From Anaerolineales bacterium (GTDB taxonomy: Bacteria > Chloroflexota > Anaerolineae > Anaerolineales > E44-bin32), in contig SOIH01000218.1 of NCBI GenBank assembly GCA_004376895.1, positions 1-37,247 on the forward strand: a DNA stretch of 37,247 nucleotides, given 5' to 3'. Positions 93 to 31,302 of this stretch are shown here, piece by piece. The first letter of the stretch is position 1. Every line of letters begins with the position of its first letter. Both the position numbers and the translations under genes were made by a program. Under the pieces are notes generated by a model that was given only the letters and a program-made list of their open reading frames with translations, had not been told where the DNA came from and did no database searches.

Positions 93-1247
93 CTATGATT
101 CAAATAGAAGTAGCCGGCGGAGCCAGAGGAGTGCGTAACTTACGGCGCGAGTTTTCATATTCACGAAGTGGGCTTCGTAGGATTTGTGATCCGTATGTTC
201 GTTATCTGGGAGTAAGACCTGGATCATCACTGTACTGCCCTCCCGCGAAGGTTGCATCGCGAGCAACAAACCTGCTTGGGCGGGAGCGTTTCGCATATCT
301 TCTTTCAAAGCCGCAGAAAGAGCTTCTTCCGATCCGGCTTCTGAGAGGATCTGTTCGCTGGCGATTATCTCCGGGAATTCTGCTAATGAAGCCGCGAGGG
401 CTCCATCTGTTCCCGCTTCAAGGAGCGCGAGATGCATGCCCTTATCCTTCAGTAAACCGATGACGACGGATTCGAGTGTCTGATCGTCCTTGCCGTAGAT
501 TGCCCTCCCTATGCGTTGTTCAAGCGTCGCCTCGACACTTGCAATCATCTTGTCGGCTTCTTGATCTGTCTTTGCCTTTGCTGTGATACGGATGTCCACA
601 CGGCCAGGATGAGCAGAGAGGCCGACTGTCGGATTATGGAGCTTCTCCAGGTCTTCGATTTTATGGTCTAACATCGACTCGCCGATACCTGCAGTGCGGA
701 CGATGCGGCTCTTGATGATGCTTTGCAATCCAAGGCGCTGTTTAAGATATGGGATAACGTCGGTGACAAGCAGATGCTGCATCTCAGCGGGGACACCAGG
801 CAATGAAATGGCCACGGATCGATCTGTCTCCACGATGAAGCCCGGAGCGGTACCCACGGGGTTTTCTATGGGGATGGCACCCGCCGGGATATACGCTTGA
901 CGACGGTTATTCTCGGTAGGAACACTCCCGAAACCCGCGAAACGCTCCTCGATCTGCTGCCATAATTCGGGCACGAAGATCGTCTCAACGCCACAAGCCT
1001 TCGCTATTCCTTCACGCGTGGGATCGTCAATTGTAGGACCTAAACCGCCGGTGGTGATTACAGCGTCTGCGCGCTGCATACTCGCTTGTACTTCTTCGGC
1101 GATCCTCTCGATGTTATCGCCGACGGTGCTGGTTCGATATAGGTCGAGGCCGATTTCGCGCAGGGCGCGCGCGATATAGCGCGTATTCGTATCAACGAGT
1201 TCGCCCAGCAGCAATTCCGTTCCAATAGTAATAATCTCAGCTTCCAT
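93..1247 (-). CDS. cinA: CinA family protein (COG1058 domain plus degenerate CinA/PncC-like domain)
   Basis: CinA proteins combine an N-terminal MoCF-like (COG1058) domain, associated with NMN/ADP-ribose pyrophosphatase activity, with a C-terminal nicotinamide-nucleotide amidase domain. The N-terminal part is clear: the start MEAEIITIGTELLLGELVDT and the motif TTGGLGPTIDDPTREG near residue 66 are canonical. The C-terminal domain (about residues 270-384) is unusual: the family's ESCTGG signature reads EAGTDG, so the catalytic Ser is missing, and the domain appears slightly shortened (384 aa against the usual 410-430). I infer that the pyrophosphatase half is intact and the deamidase half is probably inactive. 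The start codon is 4 nt behind the stop of the upstream oxidase gene and has only a weak ribosome-binding site, suggesting translational coupling. The family assignment is secure; the loss of amidase activity is inferred. Confidence 0.93.
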   Translation of the reverse strand: MEAEIITIGTELLLGELVDTNTRYIARALREIGLDLYRTSTVGDNIERIAEEVQASMQRADAVITTGGLGPTIDDPTREGIAKACGVETIFVPELWQQIEERFAGFGSVPTENNRRQAYIPAGAIPIENPVGTAPGFIVETDRSVAISLPGVPAEMQHLLVTDVIPYLKQRLGLQSIIKSRIVRTAGIGESMLDHKIEDLEKLHNPTVGLSAHPGRVDIRITAKAKTDQEADKMIASVEATLEQRIGRAIYGKDDQTLESVVIGLLKDKGMHLALLEAGTDGALAASLAEFPEIIASEQILSEAGSEEALSAALKEDMRNAPAQAGLLLAMQPSREGSTVMIQVLLPDNEHTDHKSYEAHFVNMKTRAVSYALLWLRRLLLFES

Positions 1248-10369: not shown

Positions 10370-10432
10370 TTGCCACTCAAGGAGTCGCGCAACTATAGAT
10401 CCGACGCTCTAGATCAAGGAGATCATCCATGA
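10370..10432 (+). CDS. Possible 20-codon leader ORF upstream of the thiolase-like genes
   Basis: A perfect AGGAGGTG (10354-10361) stands 8 nt before a TTG codon at 10370. The frame encodes about 20 residues, reading roughly (M)PLKESRNYRSDALDQGDHP, and ends in a TGA (10430-10432) that overlaps the ATG of the next gene (ATGA). A ribosome-binding site this strong so far from the annotated start needs an explanation, and the overlap suggests translational coupling. The downstream gene has its own AAGGAG site at 10416-10421. The peptide resembles nothing I know, and chance occurrence is possible. Confidence 0.3.
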   Translation: MPLKESRNYRSDALDQGDHP

Positions 10433-11580
10433 GCGAACGTGTAGCCATAATCGGCGTGGGATGGTCCGGATACCACCCAGTCACGCCGGAAGCGTCTTAT
10501 AAAGAACTTATGTACGAGGCGGCGGTAAAAGCTTACGCAGATGCTGGCGTCGATCCGCGTGCAGACGTGGATAGCTTTATCACCGTTGCTGAAGATTTCA
10601 TCGAAGGTACGAGTATCTTCGACGAATACGTACCTGACCAAATCGGTGCAGTACTTAAGCCCGTGCACACAATCGGGGGTGACGGCCTTCACGGTCTTGC
10701 TACGGGAAATATGCTCATCCGCACAGGGATCGCCGAGATTGTTGTGGTAGAGGGACATAGCAAAGCATCCAATGTGTTGACTTTGCCTGAAGTTACAGCT
10801 TATGCACAGGATCCCGTGCTCAACCGTCCACTTGGCTTGAACACAGAGTTTGTCGCCGGAATGGAGATGCACCGATACCTATACGATACTGGGACAACAT
10901 CTGAGCAATGTGCGTCTGTTGTTGTTAAGAACCGTGGCAACGCACTCCGTAACCCATTAGCTCCATACGGAGCGGATTTAACGATAAACGAAGTGCTTGC
11001 CGGCCCTCCACTGGCTTGGCCCCTAGGAGAGCGTGAGACAGCCAAACATGCTGATGGGGCCATTGTCATGGTACTGGCCTCCGAAGATCGGGCGAGAGCG
11101 CTAAGTGAACATCCGATCTGGATACTCGGCTCAGGATGGTGCAATGGAGCCGCATCACTTGAAAGTCGTGCCTGGGGCAGAGTGCCCTATGTACGCAACG
11201 CTGCCGATATGGCTTACCGCCAAGCCGGTATTACTCAGCCGGAATTATCGATCGATTTCGCAGAGGTGGACGACACCTACGCGTATAAAGAATTACAGCA
11301 CATTGAAGCATTGGGATTCTGCCGTGTTGGTGAAGCGGGTCTACTCACAGCAGAAGGAGCTACCGAGCTCGACGGCGATCTACCTGTCAATGTGTCTGGA
11401 GGGAGTCTTGGTATGGGCGACTTGCTCGATGCGAGTGGTTTGGCGCGGGCTTTGGAAGTCGTGCTGCAATTACGCGGCGAAGCCGGTCCGCGACAAATAC
11501 ATGAAGTTGACGTTGGATTGGCTCAATCGTGGCGCGGTGTACCGACCACAAGCGGCGCCGTGGTTATTATGGGTAGCTGA
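10429..11580 (+). CDS. Thiolase-fold protein lacking the catalytic cysteine (SCP-2/Ltp-like), subunit 1
   Basis: 383 aa with the SCP-2-type thiolase (lipid-transfer protein) architecture: start RVAIIGVGWSGY, an A-x-x-A-Y-A-D-A-G helix, the SFI segment, TSEQCASVVVKNRGNAL in the middle, and a C-terminal GGSLGMG...LQLRGEAGPRQ block. At the position of the nucleophilic Cys (CASG in true thiolases) it reads GLHG (Gly86), and the C-terminal GHP histidine motif is replaced by GMGDLLDASG. Classical Claisen condensation or thiolysis is therefore unlikely. Cys-less thiolase-fold proteins paired with DUF35 partners include the steroid side-chain retro-aldolases (Ltp2/ChsH2), which makes an aldolase-type acyl-CoA reaction a reasonable hypothesis. 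It is first in a four-gene operon with a second such protein and two DUF35 proteins. Confidence 0.85.
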   Translation: MSERVAIIGVGWSGYHPVTPEASYKELMYEAAVKAYADAGVDPRADVDSFITVAEDFIEGTSIFDEYVPDQIGAVLKPVHTIGGDGLHGLATGNMLIRTGIAEIVVVEGHSKASNVLTLPEVTAYAQDPVLNRPLGLNTEFVAGMEMHRYLYDTGTTSEQCASVVVKNRGNALRNPLAPYGADLTINEVLAGPPLAWPLGERETAKHADGAIVMVLASEDRARALSEHPIWILGSGWCNGAASLESRAWGRVPYVRNAADMAYRQAGITQPELSIDFAEVDDTYAYKELQHIEALGFCRVGEAGLLTAEGATELDGDLPVNVSGGSLGMGDLLDASGLARALEVVLQLRGEAGPRQIHEVDVGLAQSWRGVPTTSGAVVIMGS

Positions 11581-11593
11581 GGAGGGAACCACT

Positions 11594-12766
11594 ATGGGTA
11601 TGAGAAAAGTCGCCGTAGTTGGGGCTGGCATGACGAAGTTCGTTCGCCGCGCACAAGAAACGCCTAAGGAACTCGCTTGGATGGCTTCACGTATGGCGTT
11701 GAGATCATGTGAACTGACGCTCCAAGATGTTGAGGCGGTTTGCATGGGTACGGCACCTGACTCCTTTGATGGTGTACATATGAAGGCTGAGTATTTGAGC
11801 GACGGCGCAGGCGCGTTTGGGAAGCCCTATATGCGGTCATATGTTGGCGGCGGTACGGGTGTATTCGCCCCAATTCAAGGTTGGTATCACGTTGCTTCGG
11901 GTCTATTCGACATTGTCCTCGTCGTATGCGAGGAAAAGATGTCAAGTTTTTATCCACATGCTCAAGCTGCCTTTTTAACGATCTTCGATCACACAACGGA
12001 GCGCCCCCTGTTGCCGAATCTGTTGTGGATATTCGCTCTTGAAATGAACCGCTATATGCAGACGTATGGTCTTACTAAAGAAGACATCGCTCATGTGGCT
12101 GTGAAAAACAAGCGCAACGCAGCGGACCACCCTTGTGCACTCTTGGGGGATCCAGATATCACTGTTGAAGATGTGCTTAATTCCGAAATGCTGGCTTGGC
12201 CGGTGAACCGGCTTGATGTCAGTCCGGTTAGCGATGGGGCGGTCGCTATTGTCCTCGCAGCCGAGCACGTGGCTAAACGACTCACTGATAAACCAGTTTG
12301 GATCCAAGGGGTTGGTTGGAACCTGGACACCGCTTACTGGGCTAATCGCGATCTTGCCTACCCGCGCTACGTGGAGTATGCCGCACGGTCGGCTTACGAG
12401 ATGGCCGGAATCAAAGAACCACGCAAAGAGATCCATATCGTCGAACCCTACGATCCCTTTGACTACAAAGAATGCCACCATCTCGAGGGCTTGCTGCTAG
12501 CCGATCGGGGTCAAGCGCCTCAATTAGCGATCGATGGGGTTTCCCAGCGGGATGGAAATATGCCCGTATGTCCTTCAGGCGGACTGTTGGGCGTGGGTAA
12601 TCCCATCGCTGCTGCGGGATTAATGAAAATCGCTGAGTTATTCTGGCAACTACGAGGAGAGGCGGGAGATCGCCAGGTCCCGGGCCAGCCCAAACGCGGA
12701 CTCGCACAAGCTTGGGGGGATTTAATGCAGGTCGGGACTGTGGTAATCATGGGGACCAACCCTTAA
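11594..12766 (+). CDS. Thiolase-fold protein lacking the catalytic cysteine (SCP-2/Ltp-like), subunit 2
   Basis: 390 aa and a distant paralogue of the preceding gene. It begins MGMRKVAVVGAGMTKFVRR, the usual SCP-2 thiolase start, and shares the KNKRNAADHPCALLGDPDIT segment and the C-terminal LFWQLRGEAGDRQV motif. The nucleophile region reads GGGTG (Gly86 in place of Cys), and the C-terminal histidine motif is changed to GVGNPIAAAG. The ATG at 11594 is chosen because GGAGGG lies 7 nt upstream. A much longer open frame runs back to 11105 but overlaps the previous gene and is not credible. The gap to that gene is 13 nt. Two divergent Cys-less copies suggest a heteromeric complex rather than redundancy. 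The specific acyl-CoA substrate is unknown. Confidence 0.85.
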   Translation: MGMRKVAVVGAGMTKFVRRAQETPKELAWMASRMALRSCELTLQDVEAVCMGTAPDSFDGVHMKAEYLSDGAGAFGKPYMRSYVGGGTGVFAPIQGWYHVASGLFDIVLVVCEEKMSSFYPHAQAAFLTIFDHTTERPLLPNLLWIFALEMNRYMQTYGLTKEDIAHVAVKNKRNAADHPCALLGDPDITVEDVLNSEMLAWPVNRLDVSPVSDGAVAIVLAAEHVAKRLTDKPVWIQGVGWNLDTAYWANRDLAYPRYVEYAARSAYEMAGIKEPRKEIHIVEPYDPFDYKECHHLEGLLLADRGQAPQLAIDGVSQRDGNMPVCPSGGLLGVGNPIAAAGLMKIAELFWQLRGEAGDRQVPGQPKRGLAQAWGDLMQVGTVVIMGTNP

Positions 12767-12781
12767 AAGGAGCTGCCGACG

Positions 12782-13303
12782 ATGACATCTAAAATCGAAT
12801 CTTTTCCCGGTACGCCGTTACGTGAAAAAGACTTTGAAGAAGGTAAGATCCTATTCAATCACGACGAAATGAACGCGCAATTTGCCTGGGACACTGGTAT
12901 TGCGATAGGCAGTTACCTGGCGGCGTTGAAGAAAGGCGTTCTCCTTGGAGGTTACTGCGAGACCTGCCGGCGTACGGTCATTCCTCCTCGCACAGTATGC
13001 GAGTGGTGTTTCCGTCCGATGGATCGCTACGTTCATCTTAAAGACACAGGCGTCGTGAACACCTTCTCACTTTGCTACGTAACCTGGGATGTAAAACGTA
13101 TTAAAGAGCCGGAGATCCCCGCGGTGATTGAGATCGATGGCGCTTCCCCCTTGCACGGTATTATGCACAAGCTGGGGGAGGTCAAGCCAGATGCAATTCA
13201 CATCGGCATGCGCGTGCAGGCTGTATGGAAACCCGAAGAGGAGCGAGAGGGTTCCGTTACGGATATCCTCTATTTCAAGCCGATCGAGGAGAGTGGATCA
13301 TGA
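12782..13303 (+). CDS. DUF35 zinc-ribbon/OB-fold acyl-CoA-associated protein, copy 1
   Basis: 173 aa with a rubredoxin-like zinc ribbon followed by an OB fold. The zinc ligands are Cys59, Cys62, Cys73 and Cys76 (CETC...CEWC), and the OB part has DTGVVNTFSLCYV and the EIPAVIEIDGA strand. DUF35 proteins act as partners of thiolase-fold enzymes: in archaeal acetoacetyl-CoA thiolase/HMG-CoA synthase they bridge the active sites, and in steroid aldolases and BbsAB they bind the CoA ester. The N-terminal 50 residues form an extra helical segment before the ribbon. The start follows an AAGGAG site, 15 nt after the previous gene, and the stop overlaps the next start (ATGA). Confidence 0.9.
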   Translation: MTSKIESFPGTPLREKDFEEGKILFNHDEMNAQFAWDTGIAIGSYLAALKKGVLLGGYCETCRRTVIPPRTVCEWCFRPMDRYVHLKDTGVVNTFSLCYVTWDVKRIKEPEIPAVIEIDGASPLHGIMHKLGEVKPDAIHIGMRVQAVWKPEEEREGSVTDILYFKPIEESGS

Positions 13304-13767
13304 CTCTGCTAAAACGCAGTCCGGGTGCACCTCGCGCTTGGATTGGAAATCTACCCGTCACCAGTCGCTATACTTTTGGAATTGCTGGGGAACGCTTTTT
13401 CAGGGCGATAAAAGACGAAGGAAAGATCTACGGCTCACGTTGCGAGGCCTGCGATCTCACCTACGTTCCCGCACGTCAATTCTGCGAGCGTTGCTTGGCT
13501 GATTTGGAAGAATGGATCAACGTGGGCACGCAAGGCGAAGTGCATACCTTCACTTTACTTTACGAGAATCTTGATGGCAGCGTAAGAGAGGAGCCTGAAA
13601 TCGTTGCCTTTGTCCGGATGGGGGACGGTGGTATCGTCCACCGTCTGGGTGATATCGCCATTGAAGATGTTGCTATCGGGATGGTTGTCGAAGCGGTATT
13701 CAAACCGAAAAATAAGCGTAAAGGATCCATTCTCGACATCCAATACTTTCGACCGGCCAAATCCTGA
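13300..13767 (+). CDS. DUF35 zinc-ribbon/OB-fold acyl-CoA-associated protein, copy 2
   Basis: 155 aa, a paralogue of the preceding protein. Zinc ligands are Cys48, Cys51, Cys62 and Cys65 (CEAC...CERC). The OB fold follows with TQGEVHTFTLLYENL, EEPEIVAFVRMGDGGIVHRL and a terminal KGSILDIQYFRP strand. The ATG at 13300 overlaps the previous stop and is preceded by GAGGAG, so it is preferred over an upstream in-frame start at 13225 that would lie within the preceding gene. With two Cys-less thiolase-like genes and two DUF35 genes the operon has one DUF35 partner per thiolase subunit. This stoichiometry argues for a multi-subunit acyl-CoA enzyme; its reaction is not known. Confidence 0.9.
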   Translation: MTLLKRSPGAPRAWIGNLPVTSRYTFGIAGERFFRAIKDEGKIYGSRCEACDLTYVPARQFCERCLADLEEWINVGTQGEVHTFTLLYENLDGSVREEPEIVAFVRMGDGGIVHRLGDIAIEDVAIGMVVEAVFKPKNKRKGSILDIQYFRPAKS

Positions 13768-22277: not shown

Positions 22278-24260
22278 CTAATTGCCCTCACCGATCAAGT
22301 CCGGGTACTCCTGAAGTACAGGTTCCGCATCGTGTATCTCAAGATGTTTCAGAATCGAAGTAATTAATTCTGCCTTCATCTCAGCGTCCCGGCGGGACCA
22401 AGTGCGGCTTTTTATCTCCAGGAAACACCCATCTACTTTCGGCTCAAGAAGTTGATCGATATTGATGAAGAACTCGAGGTCCTCGTAGCAAATAAGCCAG
22501 CGAAGGCGATCCTTGTGAATGCTAATCTCGCTGGAAGGCTTAAAGTATTCACGGTAGAAGCGGGGTGAATACTTGGCCGGAGCGTAAAAACGGGAGCGCG
22601 AGAGCAGAACCGAGTTGTGATACTCACGTTCTGCGGCTGGACCTGTAAGCGTGAGGCGAGATCGAACGTTAAAGACCTCTCCCTCATCATTCACAAACTC
22701 ATCTTCCCGGTGGCGTAGGCGTGCGTCCTCAGGCATGGTGAACCGGAAATATTTATCATATTCAAGATAGTGTGCCCGTCTCCGGATTTCGAAGACATCT
22801 TTTTCTAATCTCGCAATTACCGCTTGCGGGTCGTCCAGTTTGACCTTGATCTGGACCTCGTAACTCTCCTCTTGTTCCGCGCCGCCGATAGCGATAAGTT
22901 TCGAGAGCACGGATCCTTCGCGTTCGGTGAGGAAGGCGTCGATCTTGGCAGCATATTGAGCGGCTTGGGGAAATAAACCATCTTCTTGGATGGTCAATAG
23001 TTCGCAATCGCGCATGAGCCATCGCCCGTTCACCATGACATCCTGGACATCCGAAGCCTTGGTTGAGTAGATCAAGCGTGAGTAAATCGCCTGGGGTTCG
23101 CGCTCGAAGTGGGGGACGTTATGCGTTCGGTCTTGATCAATGGAGATCAGGTCGGCTCGTTTTCCTGGCTCCAGAGAGCCGGTAAGGTGATCGATGTGCA
23201 GCGCCTTTGCGCCCATGCGTGTAGCCATAGCTAAAGTCTTTCTAGCTGGCAGGGCGGTGGGGTCGCTCGTAACAGTCTTGGCGATAAAGGATGCCAGGCG
23301 CATCTCTTCAAACATATCTAGGTCATTGTTCGATGCGGTGCCGTCAGTGCCAATACCGATCTGCAGTCCAGTGTCGAGCATCTCGATAATGGGGGCGAAC
23401 CCGGAGGCTAGCTTGAGATTGCTCGAGGGGTTATGTGCCACGCCTACACCTGCATGTTCCAATGTATGGATCTCACCATCGTCGATATGAACGCAGTGTG
23501 CGGCGATGACTTTCGCATCAAATAAATCTAACTTCTTCACCCAGGGGACCACCGGCATGTCGTAGGTCTCGCGCCAATCATCGACCTCTCCCTTGGTTTC
23601 GGAGATATGTATATGCAGGGGTACATCAAATTCCATTGCAAGATCTCTGCACGACTCGAGTATCTCCTCCGTGCAGGTGTACGGCGCATGAGGTGCAACT
23701 GCCGGAATGATTAGCAGGTCATCTTTCCACTTTTCGATGAAACTGCGTGAAGCCGCGAGTGAATCTTCAAAGGATTCAGCATCCGGGGTGGGGAATTTAA
23801 GTATCGATTGACCGCAGATGGCGCGCATGCCCGCATCTTTCGTCGCCTGGGCAACGGCGTCTTCAAAATAGTACATATCGGCGAAGCAAGTGACGCCTCC
23901 CCGGATCATCTCTGCACAGGCGATTTGCGTGCCGAGACGACAGAACTCGGGGGACACGAATTCACGCTCAACGGGCATCATGTACCCCATCAGCCAGACA
24001 TCAAGTCGTAAGTCATCTGCTAATCCGCGCAGCAATGTCATGGGTACGTGCGTATGCGCGTTGATAAGCCCGGGAATGACCACGCGCGAACCGAGATCGA
24101 TCACCTCACCCGTGGAGTGATTCTGCTGAACTTCATCTTGTGGACCGACATCGATGATGGTGTCGTCCTTAATGGCAATGGCTCCGTGCTTGAAGATTCT
24201 GTATTCAGAATCCATCGTCACGATCGTGTCAGCGGTTAAGATGAGATTAACTTTACCCAT
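22278..24260 (-). CDS. MTA/SAH-type adenosine deaminase (amidohydrolase) fused to a CYTH domain
   Basis: A 660-aa two-domain protein. Residues 1 to about 455 are an amidohydrolase of the methylthioadenosine/S-adenosylhomocysteine deaminase group: metal ligands His69 and His71 (NAHTH), HIHISET, AAHCVH and GTDGTASNND are in the expected order, with GKRADLISID near its end. Residues about 464-650 look like a CYTH triphosphate-tunnel domain: YEVQIKVKL (variant of the ExExK strand), RLRHRED, NVRSRLTLTG, RLRWLICYEDLEFFINIDQL and FLEIKSRTWSRRDAE. Deaminases of this family usually end near residue 440, so the C-terminal 200 residues are an addition. The ATG has an AAGGTGA site. The neighbour across the divergent promoter is a pyrimidine-nucleoside phosphorylase, which suggests nucleoside salvage. 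The role of the CYTH part is unknown. Confidence 0.88.
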   Translation of the reverse strand: MGKVNLILTADTIVTMDSEYRIFKHGAIAIKDDTIIDVGPQDEVQQNHSTGEVIDLGSRVVIPGLINAHTHVPMTLLRGLADDLRLDVWLMGYMMPVEREFVSPEFCRLGTQIACAEMIRGGVTCFADMYYFEDAVAQATKDAGMRAICGQSILKFPTPDAESFEDSLAASRSFIEKWKDDLLIIPAVAPHAPYTCTEEILESCRDLAMEFDVPLHIHISETKGEVDDWRETYDMPVVPWVKKLDLFDAKVIAAHCVHIDDGEIHTLEHAGVGVAHNPSSNLKLASGFAPIIEMLDTGLQIGIGTDGTASNNDLDMFEEMRLASFIAKTVTSDPTALPARKTLAMATRMGAKALHIDHLTGSLEPGKRADLISIDQDRTHNVPHFEREPQAIYSRLIYSTKASDVQDVMVNGRWLMRDCELLTIQEDGLFPQAAQYAAKIDAFLTEREGSVLSKLIAIGGAEQEESYEVQIKVKLDDPQAVIARLEKDVFEIRRRAHYLEYDKYFRFTMPEDARLRHREDEFVNDEGEVFNVRSRLTLTGPAAEREYHNSVLLSRSRFYAPAKYSPRFYREYFKPSSEISIHKDRLRWLICYEDLEFFINIDQLLEPKVDGCFLEIKSRTWSRRDAEMKAELITSILKHLEIHDAEPVLQEYPDLIGEGN

Positions 24261-24295: not shown

Positions 24296-24335
24296 GCAGG
24301 CAACGGTATGAACTGCTTGTGTGGTGATCAGGATG

Positions 24336-24341
24336 TATAAT
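24336..24341 (+). promoter_or_regulatory. Candidate -10 element for the nucleoside phosphorylase gene
   Basis: A perfect TATAAT at 24336-24341 with only a poor -35 (CTGCTT, 24313-24318). The predicted start near 24348 falls at the edge of the AGGAGG ribosome-binding site (24347-24352), so the true start may differ slightly. Confidence 0.4.
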
Positions 24342-24359
24342 GCCGTAGGAGGAATATTC

Positions 24360-25667
24360 ATGCGAGCGGTTGACATCATCACTAAGAAACGCGATGGCGC
24401 AGAACTGACGGCCGAAGAGATCGGTTTCTTCATCGAAGGTTTTACCTGTGGCGAGATTCCAGATTACCAGGCTTCATCCTGGGCAATGGCTGTCCTATTG
24501 AAAGGGATGACGCCAAGAGAGACCGCAGACTTGACACTTTCACTAGCGCGCTCGGGAGATCAACTCGATTTCTCGGATATTGTGCCGATTGTCTTGGACA
24601 AACACTCGACAGGAGGAGTTGGTGACAAGACAACTCTCGTGGTTACTCCCATCGTCTCGGCTAGTGGGATCGCCGTGGGGAAAATGTCGGGACGAGGACT
24701 GGGTTTTACGGGGGGAACACTGGATAAGATGGAGTCGATACCCGGTTTTCGGGTTGACTTATCGACGGATGAATTTCGTAAGCAGCTCCTTAAACAGGGG
24801 CTTGTCCTCACTGGACAAACAGCAGATCTCGCGCCTGCGGATGGCAAGTTGTATTCACTCCGTGACGTCACCGGGACGGTACCATCCGTGCCCCTCATTG
24901 CATCATCGGTCATGAGTAAGAAGATAGCGGGAGGTGCTACCGCTATAGTGCTTGATGTAAAGGTTGGGCTGGGGGCTTTCATGGGAACCCTTGAACAAGC
25001 TGTAGAGTTAGCAGAACTTATGGTGCAGATCGGCTCTCTCTCTGATCGAAAAGTCGTCGCTCTGATCTCGGATATGAACCAGCCGCTCGGCGATGCAGTT
25101 GGCAACGCAATCGAGGTTCGGGAAGCGATCGAGACTCTACAAGGTGGCGGCCCTCAAGATTTCCAAGAACATTGTCTGGTCTTAGCCAGCCACATGCTTC
25201 TCTTGGCCGAGAAAGCGGATAGCTTCGAGGGAGCGTATGCTCTTTGTCAGAAGGTTATCGAGAATGGTTCTGCATTAACGAAGTTCAAAGATCTTGTGCT
25301 CGCGCAGGGCGGCGATATCTCCTATGTTGAAGACCCGAGCAAATTGCATCTTGCTCCGGAACGACTCGATGTTGGTGCGCCAAAGGCGGGTTATATCTCA
25401 CAAATTCATGCCGGCGAAGTTGGCCTGACAGCCATGGAGTTGGGCGCTGGCCGGACGCAAAAAGGTGATCCGGTTGATCATTCGGTCGGCATTGAAATCC
25501 TGCATAATGTGGGCGATCGTGTTGATGAGGGAGATAGGCTTTTTACGGTCTACGCCAAGACTGCGAATCAAGCGCAGGCAGCTTCAGAGCGATTGCTTTC
25601 CGCGCACGAGATCACCGAGAAGCCGGTCGATGCGCTTCCCCTTTTCTACGAGACGATCGGTTCGTAG
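24360..25667 (+). CDS. pdp: Pyrimidine-nucleoside (thymidine) phosphorylase
   Basis: Splits thymidine, deoxyuridine or uridine with phosphate into base and (deoxy)ribose-1-phosphate in the cytoplasm. The 435-aa length and sequence match the family: MRAVDIITKKRDGAELTAEE at the N-terminus, the phosphate-binding signature DKHSTGGVGDKTTLVVTP (about residues 80-97), GRGLGFTGGTLDKMESIPGF, and DVKVGLGAFM; the C-terminal PYNP domain has AGRTQKGDPVDHSVGIEIL. The ATG at 24360 follows AGGAGG at a 7-nt spacing, so the 13 codons upstream in the same frame are not used. Whether it prefers uridine (Pdp) or thymidine (DeoA) is not decided by eye. Confidence 0.96.
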   Translation: MRAVDIITKKRDGAELTAEEIGFFIEGFTCGEIPDYQASSWAMAVLLKGMTPRETADLTLSLARSGDQLDFSDIVPIVLDKHSTGGVGDKTTLVVTPIVSASGIAVGKMSGRGLGFTGGTLDKMESIPGFRVDLSTDEFRKQLLKQGLVLTGQTADLAPADGKLYSLRDVTGTVPSVPLIASSVMSKKIAGGATAIVLDVKVGLGAFMGTLEQAVELAELMVQIGSLSDRKVVALISDMNQPLGDAVGNAIEVREAIETLQGGGPQDFQEHCLVLASHMLLLAEKADSFEGAYALCQKVIENGSALTKFKDLVLAQGGDISYVEDPSKLHLAPERLDVGAPKAGYISQIHAGEVGLTAMELGAGRTQKGDPVDHSVGIEILHNVGDRVDEGDRLFTVYAKTANQAQAASERLLSAHEITEKPVDALPLFYETIGS

Positions 25668-29415: not shown

Positions 29416-29791
29416 TGAGATATTCCTGAAGAATCACAGCCGCGGCGCGTGCATCTAGAAGTTGATCCGACTTACGAATTTGAAGGGCAGCCTGGGTTGA
29501 ACCGCTCTCATCCCAAGTTAAGACAGGGATGGATGTTATCTCGCAAAGGGCTTCAACGAGGCGCAGCGCTTTCCTTGCCTGAGGCCCTGGGTTTCCTTCT
29601 ATATCATACGGAATGCCTACCACTATCGTGCCTGCCTCATGCTTTTCTGCCGCAAGGACGATCTCGCGCACGTCGGCAGCGCGTGAAGTGTGCTCAAGCA
29701 CCAACAGAGGACGAGCGATCAGCCCAGTTGGGTCGCTAATGGCAAGACCGTGGCGTTTGTCTCCTGGGTCAACAGCGAGGATCCTGCTCAC
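29399..29791 (-). CDS. ruvX: Putative Holliday junction resolvase RuvX/YqgF
   Basis: RNase H-fold nuclease of 130 aa, linked to pre-16S rRNA processing or Holliday junction resolution. It has the family order: ILAVDPGDKRHGLAISDPTG at the N-terminus with the first catalytic Asp, VVGIPYDIEGNPGPQARKAL, TWDESGSTQAA, and LDARAAAVILQEYL with the last Asp. The usual DER-L-T segment reads DESGST, so the Arg is replaced by Ser. The start is a GTG preceded by GGGAGG at 7 nt, overlapping the stop of the upstream baseplate-J-like gene. The mltG gene follows with a 17-nt overlap; the ruvX-mltG pair is common in bacteria. Confidence 0.92.
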   Translation of the reverse strand: MSRILAVDPGDKRHGLAISDPTGLIARPLLVLEHTSRAADVREIVLAAEKHEAGTIVVGIPYDIEGNPGPQARKALRLVEALCEITSIPVLTWDESGSTQAALQIRKSDQLLDARAAAVILQEYLNAQTD

Positions 29792-31302
29792 GTGTCTGCC
29801 TCCCAGGGATAGCGAATGTGAATTTGCAGGTCGAGAAACGGAAAACGGTGTAGCCAGGCTGGGCTGATGTCCACACTTAATATCTCCTCGATTGGAATTT
29901 CCCCATTCAAGTCTTCAAGTGCTTCAGATGCTTTCTTTCCCCTGACGATTTTTCGGATCACTGAGAAGTCGACGCTTATAAACGCCTGGGCTGATATCGT
30001 CACATTGATGCTGGGTTCCTCATCATCATTGTCGTACACAATATCAGCGACTTTGAGGATCTTCAGTGTGTCCGGCTGGATGTTCTCATCCTTGGAGAGA
30101 TCCTCGACAAGAACTTGATTCATCGCGGAGTGGAGCTGATCTGGAGAATATACCCGCCCCTCGAATTCTAATATCAAGCTTAATTCAAGCGAATCGGCGG
30201 CATCCCCGATTTCATTGCTGAAGCGCACTTCGACGGTTTCGAGTAGGCGAATACTCCCTGGGATGAGGTCCTCACCCTCCTGTGCCAAGCCTAGCAAGGC
30301 TTGATGTGCCTTATCGAACAGGTTGTTCTCCAGTTCCAGGCGCACGCGCACTAAATCTGCTTTCGATACGGCACTACGAATCTCGAGCGATCCACCAGAG
30401 AATTGGTCTAGATTAGAAACGGTAGCTGATAATCCGAGGAGCCCATCGATCGCATGGATCGCTTCCGCTTTGACGTTACCCTCAGGTCCTGGCGAAGAGG
30501 CGACCACTTCAACAGTGATCTGTGCTCCTTCCTCCGGATCAAGATTTACACGCGATTGCGTTACGAAGTGCGGTGCTGATAGATCGAGCGTTCGAACTGT
30601 CGTACCTACCGGGATTGCGAGACTATGGTCCGTTAGGTTGGTGAATGTGACCTCACCACGAGCTGATTGATCCGGCCGAGCGGCGCGACCAGTCGTCGGT
30701 AGTCGGAGACGGCCTTCTATTACCGATTGAACTTGTCGAGTTGGAAGGCGAGGAGCGTTTGTGATAATTCTCGATTGGTCCAACTCTAAATCAATGGAGT
30801 ACGTCTTAACAATATCCATTGTTTCGGGCTCGATTGTGATCACCGCCTGCGGGATGAGCAGGACGACTAAAAACACAAAAGCCAAGAAGCCAACAGAGAA
30901 CGTAGTAATTCGGGAGACGCGATTCATTTGAGGAGGCTTTTTGGTGGTTCGACTTAATGACGGTTGGAGAGAAGATAACTCTCCCGAAGATATGGGTTTA
31001 GATGTTTTTCGTTCGCCTCGAACTCGCCAGGCTTTTTCGGGCTGATACTCAAGGGATTCGAACGTCGGGATATGAAGGGCTTCGGCGTGATGTAGCACAT
31101 CAGGATCGAGCGTGACAAGTCCGATCTGGGTTCCATTCTTGCGCGCGTAGCGTTGGAGCATTACCAGGTCGAAGCGTCGAGAGAGCACTCTCCCGCGTCC
31201 TGGCCAAACGAGGACGACGCGCGGCGCCTGTGTCCAGTTTAATTTATCGCGGACGGAGTTGTAATCATCGTGAGGCTCTAGATAGACAATTTGTGTCTTC
31301 AC
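29788..31302 (-). CDS. Membrane-anchored baseplate J/gp47-like protein
   Basis: 504-aa protein with three parts. Residues 1 to about 95 form a cytoplasmic domain (VVLVWPGRGRVLSRRFDLVM, GLVTLDPDVLHHAEALHIPT) of no family I can name. A single membrane helix lies at about 132-154. The outer part, from about 220 to 310, has the baseplate-J pattern: VTFTNLTDHSLAIPVGTTVR, ITVEVVASSPGPEGNVKAEA, VSNLDQFSGGS. The remaining C-terminal part is of alternating beta/alpha type. Such J-like proteins occur in Chloroflexota and other bacteria away from phage genes, and their function is not known. It lies 25 nt after alaS and overlaps ruvX by four bases, so it is part of a housekeeping operon. The start is GTG without a clear ribosome-binding site; a later start is possible. 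Confidence 0.78.
   Translation of the reverse strand: MKTQIVYLEPHDDYNSVRDKLNWTQAPRVVLVWPGRGRVLSRRFDLVMLQRYARKNGTQIGLVTLDPDVLHHAEALHIPTFESLEYQPEKAWRVRGERKTSKPISSGELSSLQPSLSRTTKKPPQMNRVSRITTFSVGFLAFVFLVVLLIPQAVITIEPETMDIVKTYSIDLELDQSRIITNAPRLPTRQVQSVIEGRLRLPTTGRAARPDQSARGEVTFTNLTDHSLAIPVGTTVRTLDLSAPHFVTQSRVNLDPEEGAQITVEVVASSPGPEGNVKAEAIHAIDGLLGLSATVSNLDQFSGGSLEIRSAVSKADLVRVRLELENNLFDKAHQALLGLAQEGEDLIPGSIRLLETVEVRFSNEIGDAADSLELSLILEFEGRVYSPDQLHSAMNQVLVEDLSKDENIQPDTLKILKVADIVYDNDDEEPSINVTISAQAFISVDFSVIRKIVRGKKASEALEDLNGEIPIEEILSVDISPAWLHRFPFLDLQIHIRYPWEADT

Follow-up and report, generated by a model that had tools for sequence, protein, structure and literature searches.

A single open reading frame in the window, the whole 37,247-nucleotide stretch of Anaerolineales DNA analysed here, encodes an intact protein in which an adenosine-type deaminase is followed by what sequence and structure-model comparisons identify as a divergent CYTH/TTM domain, and the tunnel motifs of this domain were altered in the same way in every one of the 129 distinct copies compared (Table 1). 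We favor the explanation, at a probability of roughly 0.4, that a metal-dependent deaminase of the MTA/SAH/5'-deoxyadenosine branch, whichever adenine nucleoside it may act on, has been combined with a non-hydrolysing TTM domain. Together with one divalent metal, this domain would bind a ligand rich in phosphate, for which a nucleoside triphosphate or a short chain of inorganic polyphosphate is the likeliest candidate; the ligand would not be hydrolysed by the usual route, and its binding would then tune or position the deaminase.

Table 1. Features of the fused gene, with positions in the window and residues of the encoded protein
Feature	Residues	Position	Strand	Evidence or status
Amidohydrolase-CYTH fusion ORF, 660 aa	1-660	22278-24260	-	Single open frame, ATG start, intact
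Adenosine-type deaminase/amidohydrolase domain	1-445	22926-24260	-	PF01979 (7.4e-75); invariant columns; PDB alignment
Conserved inter-domain helix SVLSKLIAIGG	450-460	22881-22913	-	A1 alignment; helix 2-10 in AF2 model
Divergent CYTH/TTM-fold domain, eight long strands	450-660	22281-22913	-	PF01928 in relatives; AF2; Foldseek; VIA-align
E-x-Q-x-K replacing the CYTH hallmark E-x-E-x-K	468-472	22845-22859	-	129/129; aligns with EIEVK of own genome's ordinary CYTH
R-x-R phosphate-binding arginine pair	516-518	22707-22715	-	129/129
K-x-R-x-R basic strand	583-587	22500-22514	-	129/129
E-x-K replacing strand-8 E-x-E	615-617	22410-22418	-	129/129; aligns with FVEIE of ordinary CYTH

The fused gene was free of internal stops across all 660 codons, and the fusion genes of relatives were likewise single open frames. 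An earlier note, made from the sequence alone, had proposed such a fusion and had allowed that a frameshift in related genomes might separate the two domains as independent genes. The fusion stood: no frameshift or split gene separating the domains was found in relatives, among 159 ORFs with a CYTH-domain match (some genomes being counted twice). More than 400 residues preceded the domain in 153 of these ORFs, the other six were cut by a sequence end, and none of the 159 was a stand-alone C-terminal domain. The short frames of G004, G007, G234, and G471 were truncated by the sequence end; G003, with pieces on two contigs, and G066, with 58 residues matched, were left out of this check.

The architecture proved to be widespread when surveyed across Chloroflexota, as the earlier note had suggested doing. 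The C-terminal domain was present in 94 of the 101 nearest genomes and in 89 of 400 genomes drawn from the phylum, with protein and profile searches concurring. By rank, the domain occurred in 35 of 36 genomes of the window's order (its own genome included), in 15 of 19 others of the class, and in 39 of 345 genomes from the rest of the phylum, where the carriers belonged to five families. Because the domain recurs in this many relatives and phylum genomes and was always fused where sequence length sufficed, a chance or artefactual origin of the fusion is rejected. Furthermore, when the deaminase half was searched against 201 phylum genomes, 40 gave a hit of at least 377 bits, and all 40 contained the CYTH half; a frame of at least 657 residues was present in 39 of them, and in G234 the two halves were on pieces truncated where contigs end. 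The next-best hits dropped to 291 bits with at most 41% identity, so the fused deaminases form a separate group within Chloroflexota (at least 377 bits versus at most 291 bits for unfused copies). In a deaminase-domain tree with 37 fused and 23 unfused members, obtained by a quick search and containing some long unfused branches, all 37 fused domains fell into one group with an SH-aLRT of 100 and one change of state. Most simply, these sequences suggest that the fusion arose once, and it was not seen to come apart. Its retention across a large divergence (37 to 72% identity in the C-terminal domain), together with one origin, speaks for a joint function of the two domains.

Carriers of the fusion included the cultured species Longilinea arvoryzae KOME-1 (L062), which makes the idea testable, and Anaerolinea thermophila bins (L059 and L093). 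For carriers outside Chloroflexota, a search of plasmids found none, and the scan of genome contigs retained 80 of 318 loci. A contig labelled Calditrichia bacterium (L080) encoded a fused protein 65 to 66% identical to Anaerolineales-type copies, and it is therefore probably misbinned.

The deaminase half was examined by profile and structure-based comparison. Residues 60 to 414 matched Amidohydro_1 (PF01979) in Pfam with 252.8 bits versus a cut-off of 25. A profile of alignment A2, which comprised 50 fused proteins, had as its best PDB match 4f0r (7e-134), spanning residues 5 to 440; this entry is deposited as a 5-methylthioadenosine/S-adenosylhomocysteine deaminase. A2 was aligned with 4f0r and four other PDB chains; within A2, H69, H71, H218, D306, E221, and H255 were invariant across the 50 sequences, as were W89, E98, H191, and S310. 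From MTA/SAH deaminase structures, we take H69, H71, H218, and D306 to be the metal ligands, E221 and H255 the acid/base residues, and E98, W89, H191, and S310 the nucleoside pocket. The deaminase half is thus, as judged by its sequence, complete and under constraint, which bears out the complete amidohydrolase described previously.

The proposed MTA/SAH type was upheld, with a reservation about the exact substrate. The closest solved relative is indeed 4f0r, but the MTA/SAH deaminase model NF012037 scored 319.7 bits versus a curated cut-off of 779, short of the equivalog score, and the nucleoside is not fixed by these matches. Because of this score, the protein was filed only as an adenosine-type deaminase. 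In NCBIfam, 66 families matched at E ≤ 1, the best being NF006549 (2e-143, 478 bits versus a cut-off of 540), and the deaminase was below the curated cut-off of every family among the matches listed (25 of the 66). Compared with MTA/SAH deaminases (4f0r, 4dzh, 3lnp, and 4dyk; NF006549 and NF012037), the fused protein has the same complete fold and the same catalytic and pocket residues, whereas it falls under those cut-offs and adds the CYTH domain.

Assignment of the C-terminal half depended on relatives rather than on the window copy. Residues 450 to 660 of that copy alone matched no Pfam family at E ≤ 1 and found nothing convincing among PDB sequences (best E 0.083), and the profile of A1, an alignment of 53 relatives with 37 to 72% identity in the C-terminal domain, matched no PDB sequence at E ≤ 10. 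However, 31 of the 53 A1 members matched PF01928 at E ≤ 1, with a best value of 1.8e-8, and the next family was matched by only four. A PF01928 search of 41 genomes recovered the fused ORF in 12, above the curated cut-off in eight. The AF2 model of the C-terminal domain built from A1 had a pLDDT of 91.9 and eight long strands; Foldseek placed SaTTM 7ns9 first (E 4e-8), closely followed by PH1819 and class IV adenylyl cyclase, and VIA-align matched 2een with a Z of 17.5 over 170 residues (rmsd 2.4), followed by 1yem (Z 16.8), 2aca (Z 16.7), and 7ns9 (Z 16.7). Alignment of A1 with 17 ordinary CYTH sequences of relatives by hhalign was weak (probability 4.4%, pair E 0.0093), and the first and last motifs lined up. 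The family was taken as CYTH because the PF01928 matches of relatives, the genome search with PF01928, and the fold matches of the AF2 model agree; on these profile and model comparisons, the C-terminal half is a divergent CYTH/TTM domain. The CYTH fold proposed in the earlier note is therefore upheld for the family, although the window copy alone lacked the profile match by which it was to be recognised. Since its CYTH half is invisible to Pfam, such a copy risks annotation as a plain amidohydrolase.

The motifs of this domain were then counted over 129 distinct copies, two partial ones having been dropped. In strand 8, the metal-1 glutamate (E615) was retained and the metal-2 glutamate was replaced by lysine (K617) in all 129. 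Also invariant were E468, Q470, K472, D502, R516, R518, D520, S554, R557, R567, F568, Y569, E571, Y572, K583, R585, R587, N600, D602, T620, W621, S622, D625, and A626. All but one of the 129 copies had L, I, T, V, or M at position 539, which is the strand-4 lysine in ordinary CYTH proteins. The DxY motif was kept (D502 in all copies, Y504 in 128), and the helix RFYREYF (567 to 573) was near-invariant. No conserved acid was left on strand 5; the register of this strand, and with it what has become of the position of Glu-90 in AtTTM3, is unsure because the hhalign alignment to ordinary CYTH is weak. By comparison, ordinary CYTH proteins of the same genome group had ExExK, the strand-4 lysine, and ExE in 17 of 17 cases; these were picked by ExE then K/R, so that the first motif was present by selection. 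The window's own genome also encodes a separate CYTH protein of the ordinary kind, in which both ExExK and ExE are intact (L165, G000:C49:3380-3769), and ordinary ExExK CYTH genes occurred in other relatives too.

The meaning of these replacements can be read against published TTM work, of which PMC4641920 and PMC8233210 are cited here from extracts. In AtTTM3, metal 1 sits on Glu-169, and the remaining metal sites are formed by Glu-2, Glu-4, Glu-90, and Glu-171 (PMC4641920); metal 2 is tied to the second glutamate of ExE, and the DxY motif is linked to the alpha/beta water (PMC8233210). Mapped on AtTTM3, the fused domain would retain metal 1 and Glu-2 and lack the equivalents of Glu-4 and Glu-171. 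By the published TTM mechanism, the hydrolytic metal site should thereby be removed. Nevertheless, a change in these motifs is no proof that activity is lost, because AtTTM1/2, which are without ExExK and ExE, still act on pyrophosphate and prefer it (PMC8233210). Of the triphosphate-binding or cyclase fold suggested earlier, the CYTH assignment has held, but activity as a cyclase or triphosphatase is doubtful, given Gln and Lys at two acidic metal positions in 129 of 129 copies.

The fused domain was compared with known CYTH/TTM systems. Two-metal TTM enzymes (SaTTM 7ns9, YgiF 5a60, and AtTTM3 5a5y; PF01928) share its fold, RxR, basic strand 6, and metal-1 glutamate, whereas the fused domain has ExQxK for ExExK and ExK for ExE and is without the strand-4 lysine or a conserved strand-5 acid. 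The AtTTM1/2 type (kinase-TTM, 7z67; cluster 7 of PMC8233210) is also bi-domain, and its TTM domain has kept DxY with ExExK and ExE gone. Its partner domain, however, is a phosphoribulokinase instead of a deaminase, the fused domain is without its W/Y before RxR (Arg in the A1 consensus), and the extract of PMC8233210 gives the type as restricted to plants and Amoebozoa. The YgiF type likewise couples CYTH to a second domain, but with CYTH N-terminal and CHAD as the partner (extracts of PMC4641920 and PMC8233210); CYTH-CHAD and CYTH-phosphoribulokinase are the multi-domain types that the latter extract names among its ten largest clusters. The CyaB signature given there consists of HF before ExExK, a small residue for the first RxR arginine, and Ala for the second ExE glutamate. 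That signature of class IV adenylyl cyclase was absent from the fused domain, which has no HF before E468 in A1, keeps the arginine, and reads ExK. The thiamine triphosphatase motif W/YxRxR was absent as well, the A1 consensus being RLRYR with no W/Y majority at that place. No published account of a deaminase-CYTH architecture was found in open-licence literature, in agreement with the earlier note, which had not recognised the combination as described. Both halves are of known kinds; the pairing and the ExQxK/ExK tunnel are undescribed in that literature.

Three other explanations were weighed against a ligand-binding, non-hydrolysing domain. The protein might be bifunctional, with a CYTH domain that is still a phosphohydrolase using changed metals, for example, an AtTTM1/2-like pyrophosphatase, or that acts on a phosphorylated nucleoside which is then deaminated. 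The pyrophosphate preference of AtTTM1/2 supplies a precedent for this, D502-x-Y504 and R516/R518 are retained, and the VIA match to AtTTM1 (7z67, Z 14.2) spans the whole model; yet two of the metal-2 ligands have given way to Gln470 and Lys617 in 129 of 129 copies, and ordinary ExExK CYTH genes are carried by the own genome (L165) and by other relatives, so that we regard bifunctionality as unlikely. Slightly less probable is a purely structural role, in which a worn-out CYTH domain would be kept for oligomerisation or stability as in the Mediator subunits Med18 and Med20, which appear to have lost catalysis (PMC4641920, extract). Mediator chains were among the VIA matches with a Z of up to 13.6, and the near-invariant helix at 567 to 573 could be a contact surface, but a scaffold would not need the tunnel-strand charges E468, K472, R516, R518, K583, R585, R587, D602, and E615, which were invariant in all 129 copies.

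A basic tunnel that guides or makes polyphosphate, as in Vtc4, with the deaminase coupled to polyphosphate, was also considered. In Vtc4p, the acidic-patch positions that correspond to Glu-2, Glu-4, Glu-90, and Glu-171 of AtTTM3 are occupied by basic residues (PMC4641920, extract), and one such position is a lysine here. The VTC complex 8i6v appeared among the VIA matches, but its Z of 9.4 was far under that of the CYTH matches (17.5); moreover, Glu468 is retained, and no VTC model was among the 17 Pfam families matched by A1 members. PPK1 is a usual source of polyphosphate. A search for PPK1 (PF02503) found it in none of the 25 genomes of the window's family, many of them incomplete, and 24 of these show the fusion; among other relatives, PPK1 was present in 10 of 16. 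Its absence argues against polyphosphate as the ligand or sensor target and leaves a polymerase reading unaffected. Overall, a Vtc4-like role appears very improbable.

The pathway context leaves the deaminase substrate unfixed. SAHH was found in 35 of 41 relatives, and among nine ORFs whose motif was read, eight had HxTxE, one had HxTxQ, and none had HxExK, the motif of SIH-preferring enzymes (PMC10978960, extract). By that source, these motifs point to cleavage of SAH rather than SIH. A role in an SIH (inosyl-homocysteine) pathway is thus weakened. Adenosine deaminase (PF00962) was above the cut-off in 37 of the 41 relatives, MTAP in 35, and MTA/SAH nucleosidase in only two; there was no obvious single gap for which the fused deaminase could be a stand-in.

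Genomic neighbors, taken as same-strand genes at most four genes away, were counted at 100 loci, with counts lowered by short contigs, and no neighbor was constant across them. A pyrimidine-nucleoside phosphorylase gene (24321-25667, plus strand) adjoins the fusion gene divergently, so the nucleoside phosphorylase that the earlier note had placed beside it is there in the window. A phosphorylase gene, however, was such a neighbor at only 15 of the 100 loci; it is a local feature outside the system and was rejected as a functional clue, a CinA-like gene being commoner. The latter, the commonest neighbor, was counted at 46 loci and mutS at 13. The phosphorylase ORF is listed from a GTG at 24321, and an ATG at 24360 has AGGAGG just upstream; from the sequence, this ATG is the likelier start, which would leave a divergent intergenic region of about 100 bases.

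Several other genes of the window were also noted. Its CinA-like gene (93-1247, minus strand), 21 kb from the fusion, encodes MoCF_biosynth and CinA KH domains, and no NMN-deamidase domain was matched in it at E ≤ 1e-5. Positions 10429-13767 hold two thiolase-like ORFs and then two ChsH2-type zinc-ribbon/OB-fold proteins, of which the first thiolase-like ORF and the pair of OB proteins were identified by Pfam matches. Between alaS and mltG (YceG), positions 29788-31302 encode a 504-residue protein with a Baseplate_J-like stretch (6.9e-8), which also adjoined mltG at 10 of 72 relatives' loci.

Returning to the non-hydrolysing, ligand-binding domain, a bolder and rather doubtful form would make the protein a triphosphate-gated nucleoside deaminase, in which the TTM domain acts as an allosteric sensor with one metal and no hydrolysis, and clearance of SAM-derived or related adenine nucleosides is tied to the NTP or pyrophosphate state in at least two Chloroflexota classes. 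The swap of two metal ligands in all copies is a natural experiment on a TTM tunnel without its hydrolytic site. If the bolder form is true, ExQxK/ExK would add another chemical type of TTM tunnel to the acidic hydrolase and basic polymerase types, and a tunnel acting as a sensor would provide a new route linking phosphate state with purine-nucleoside salvage.
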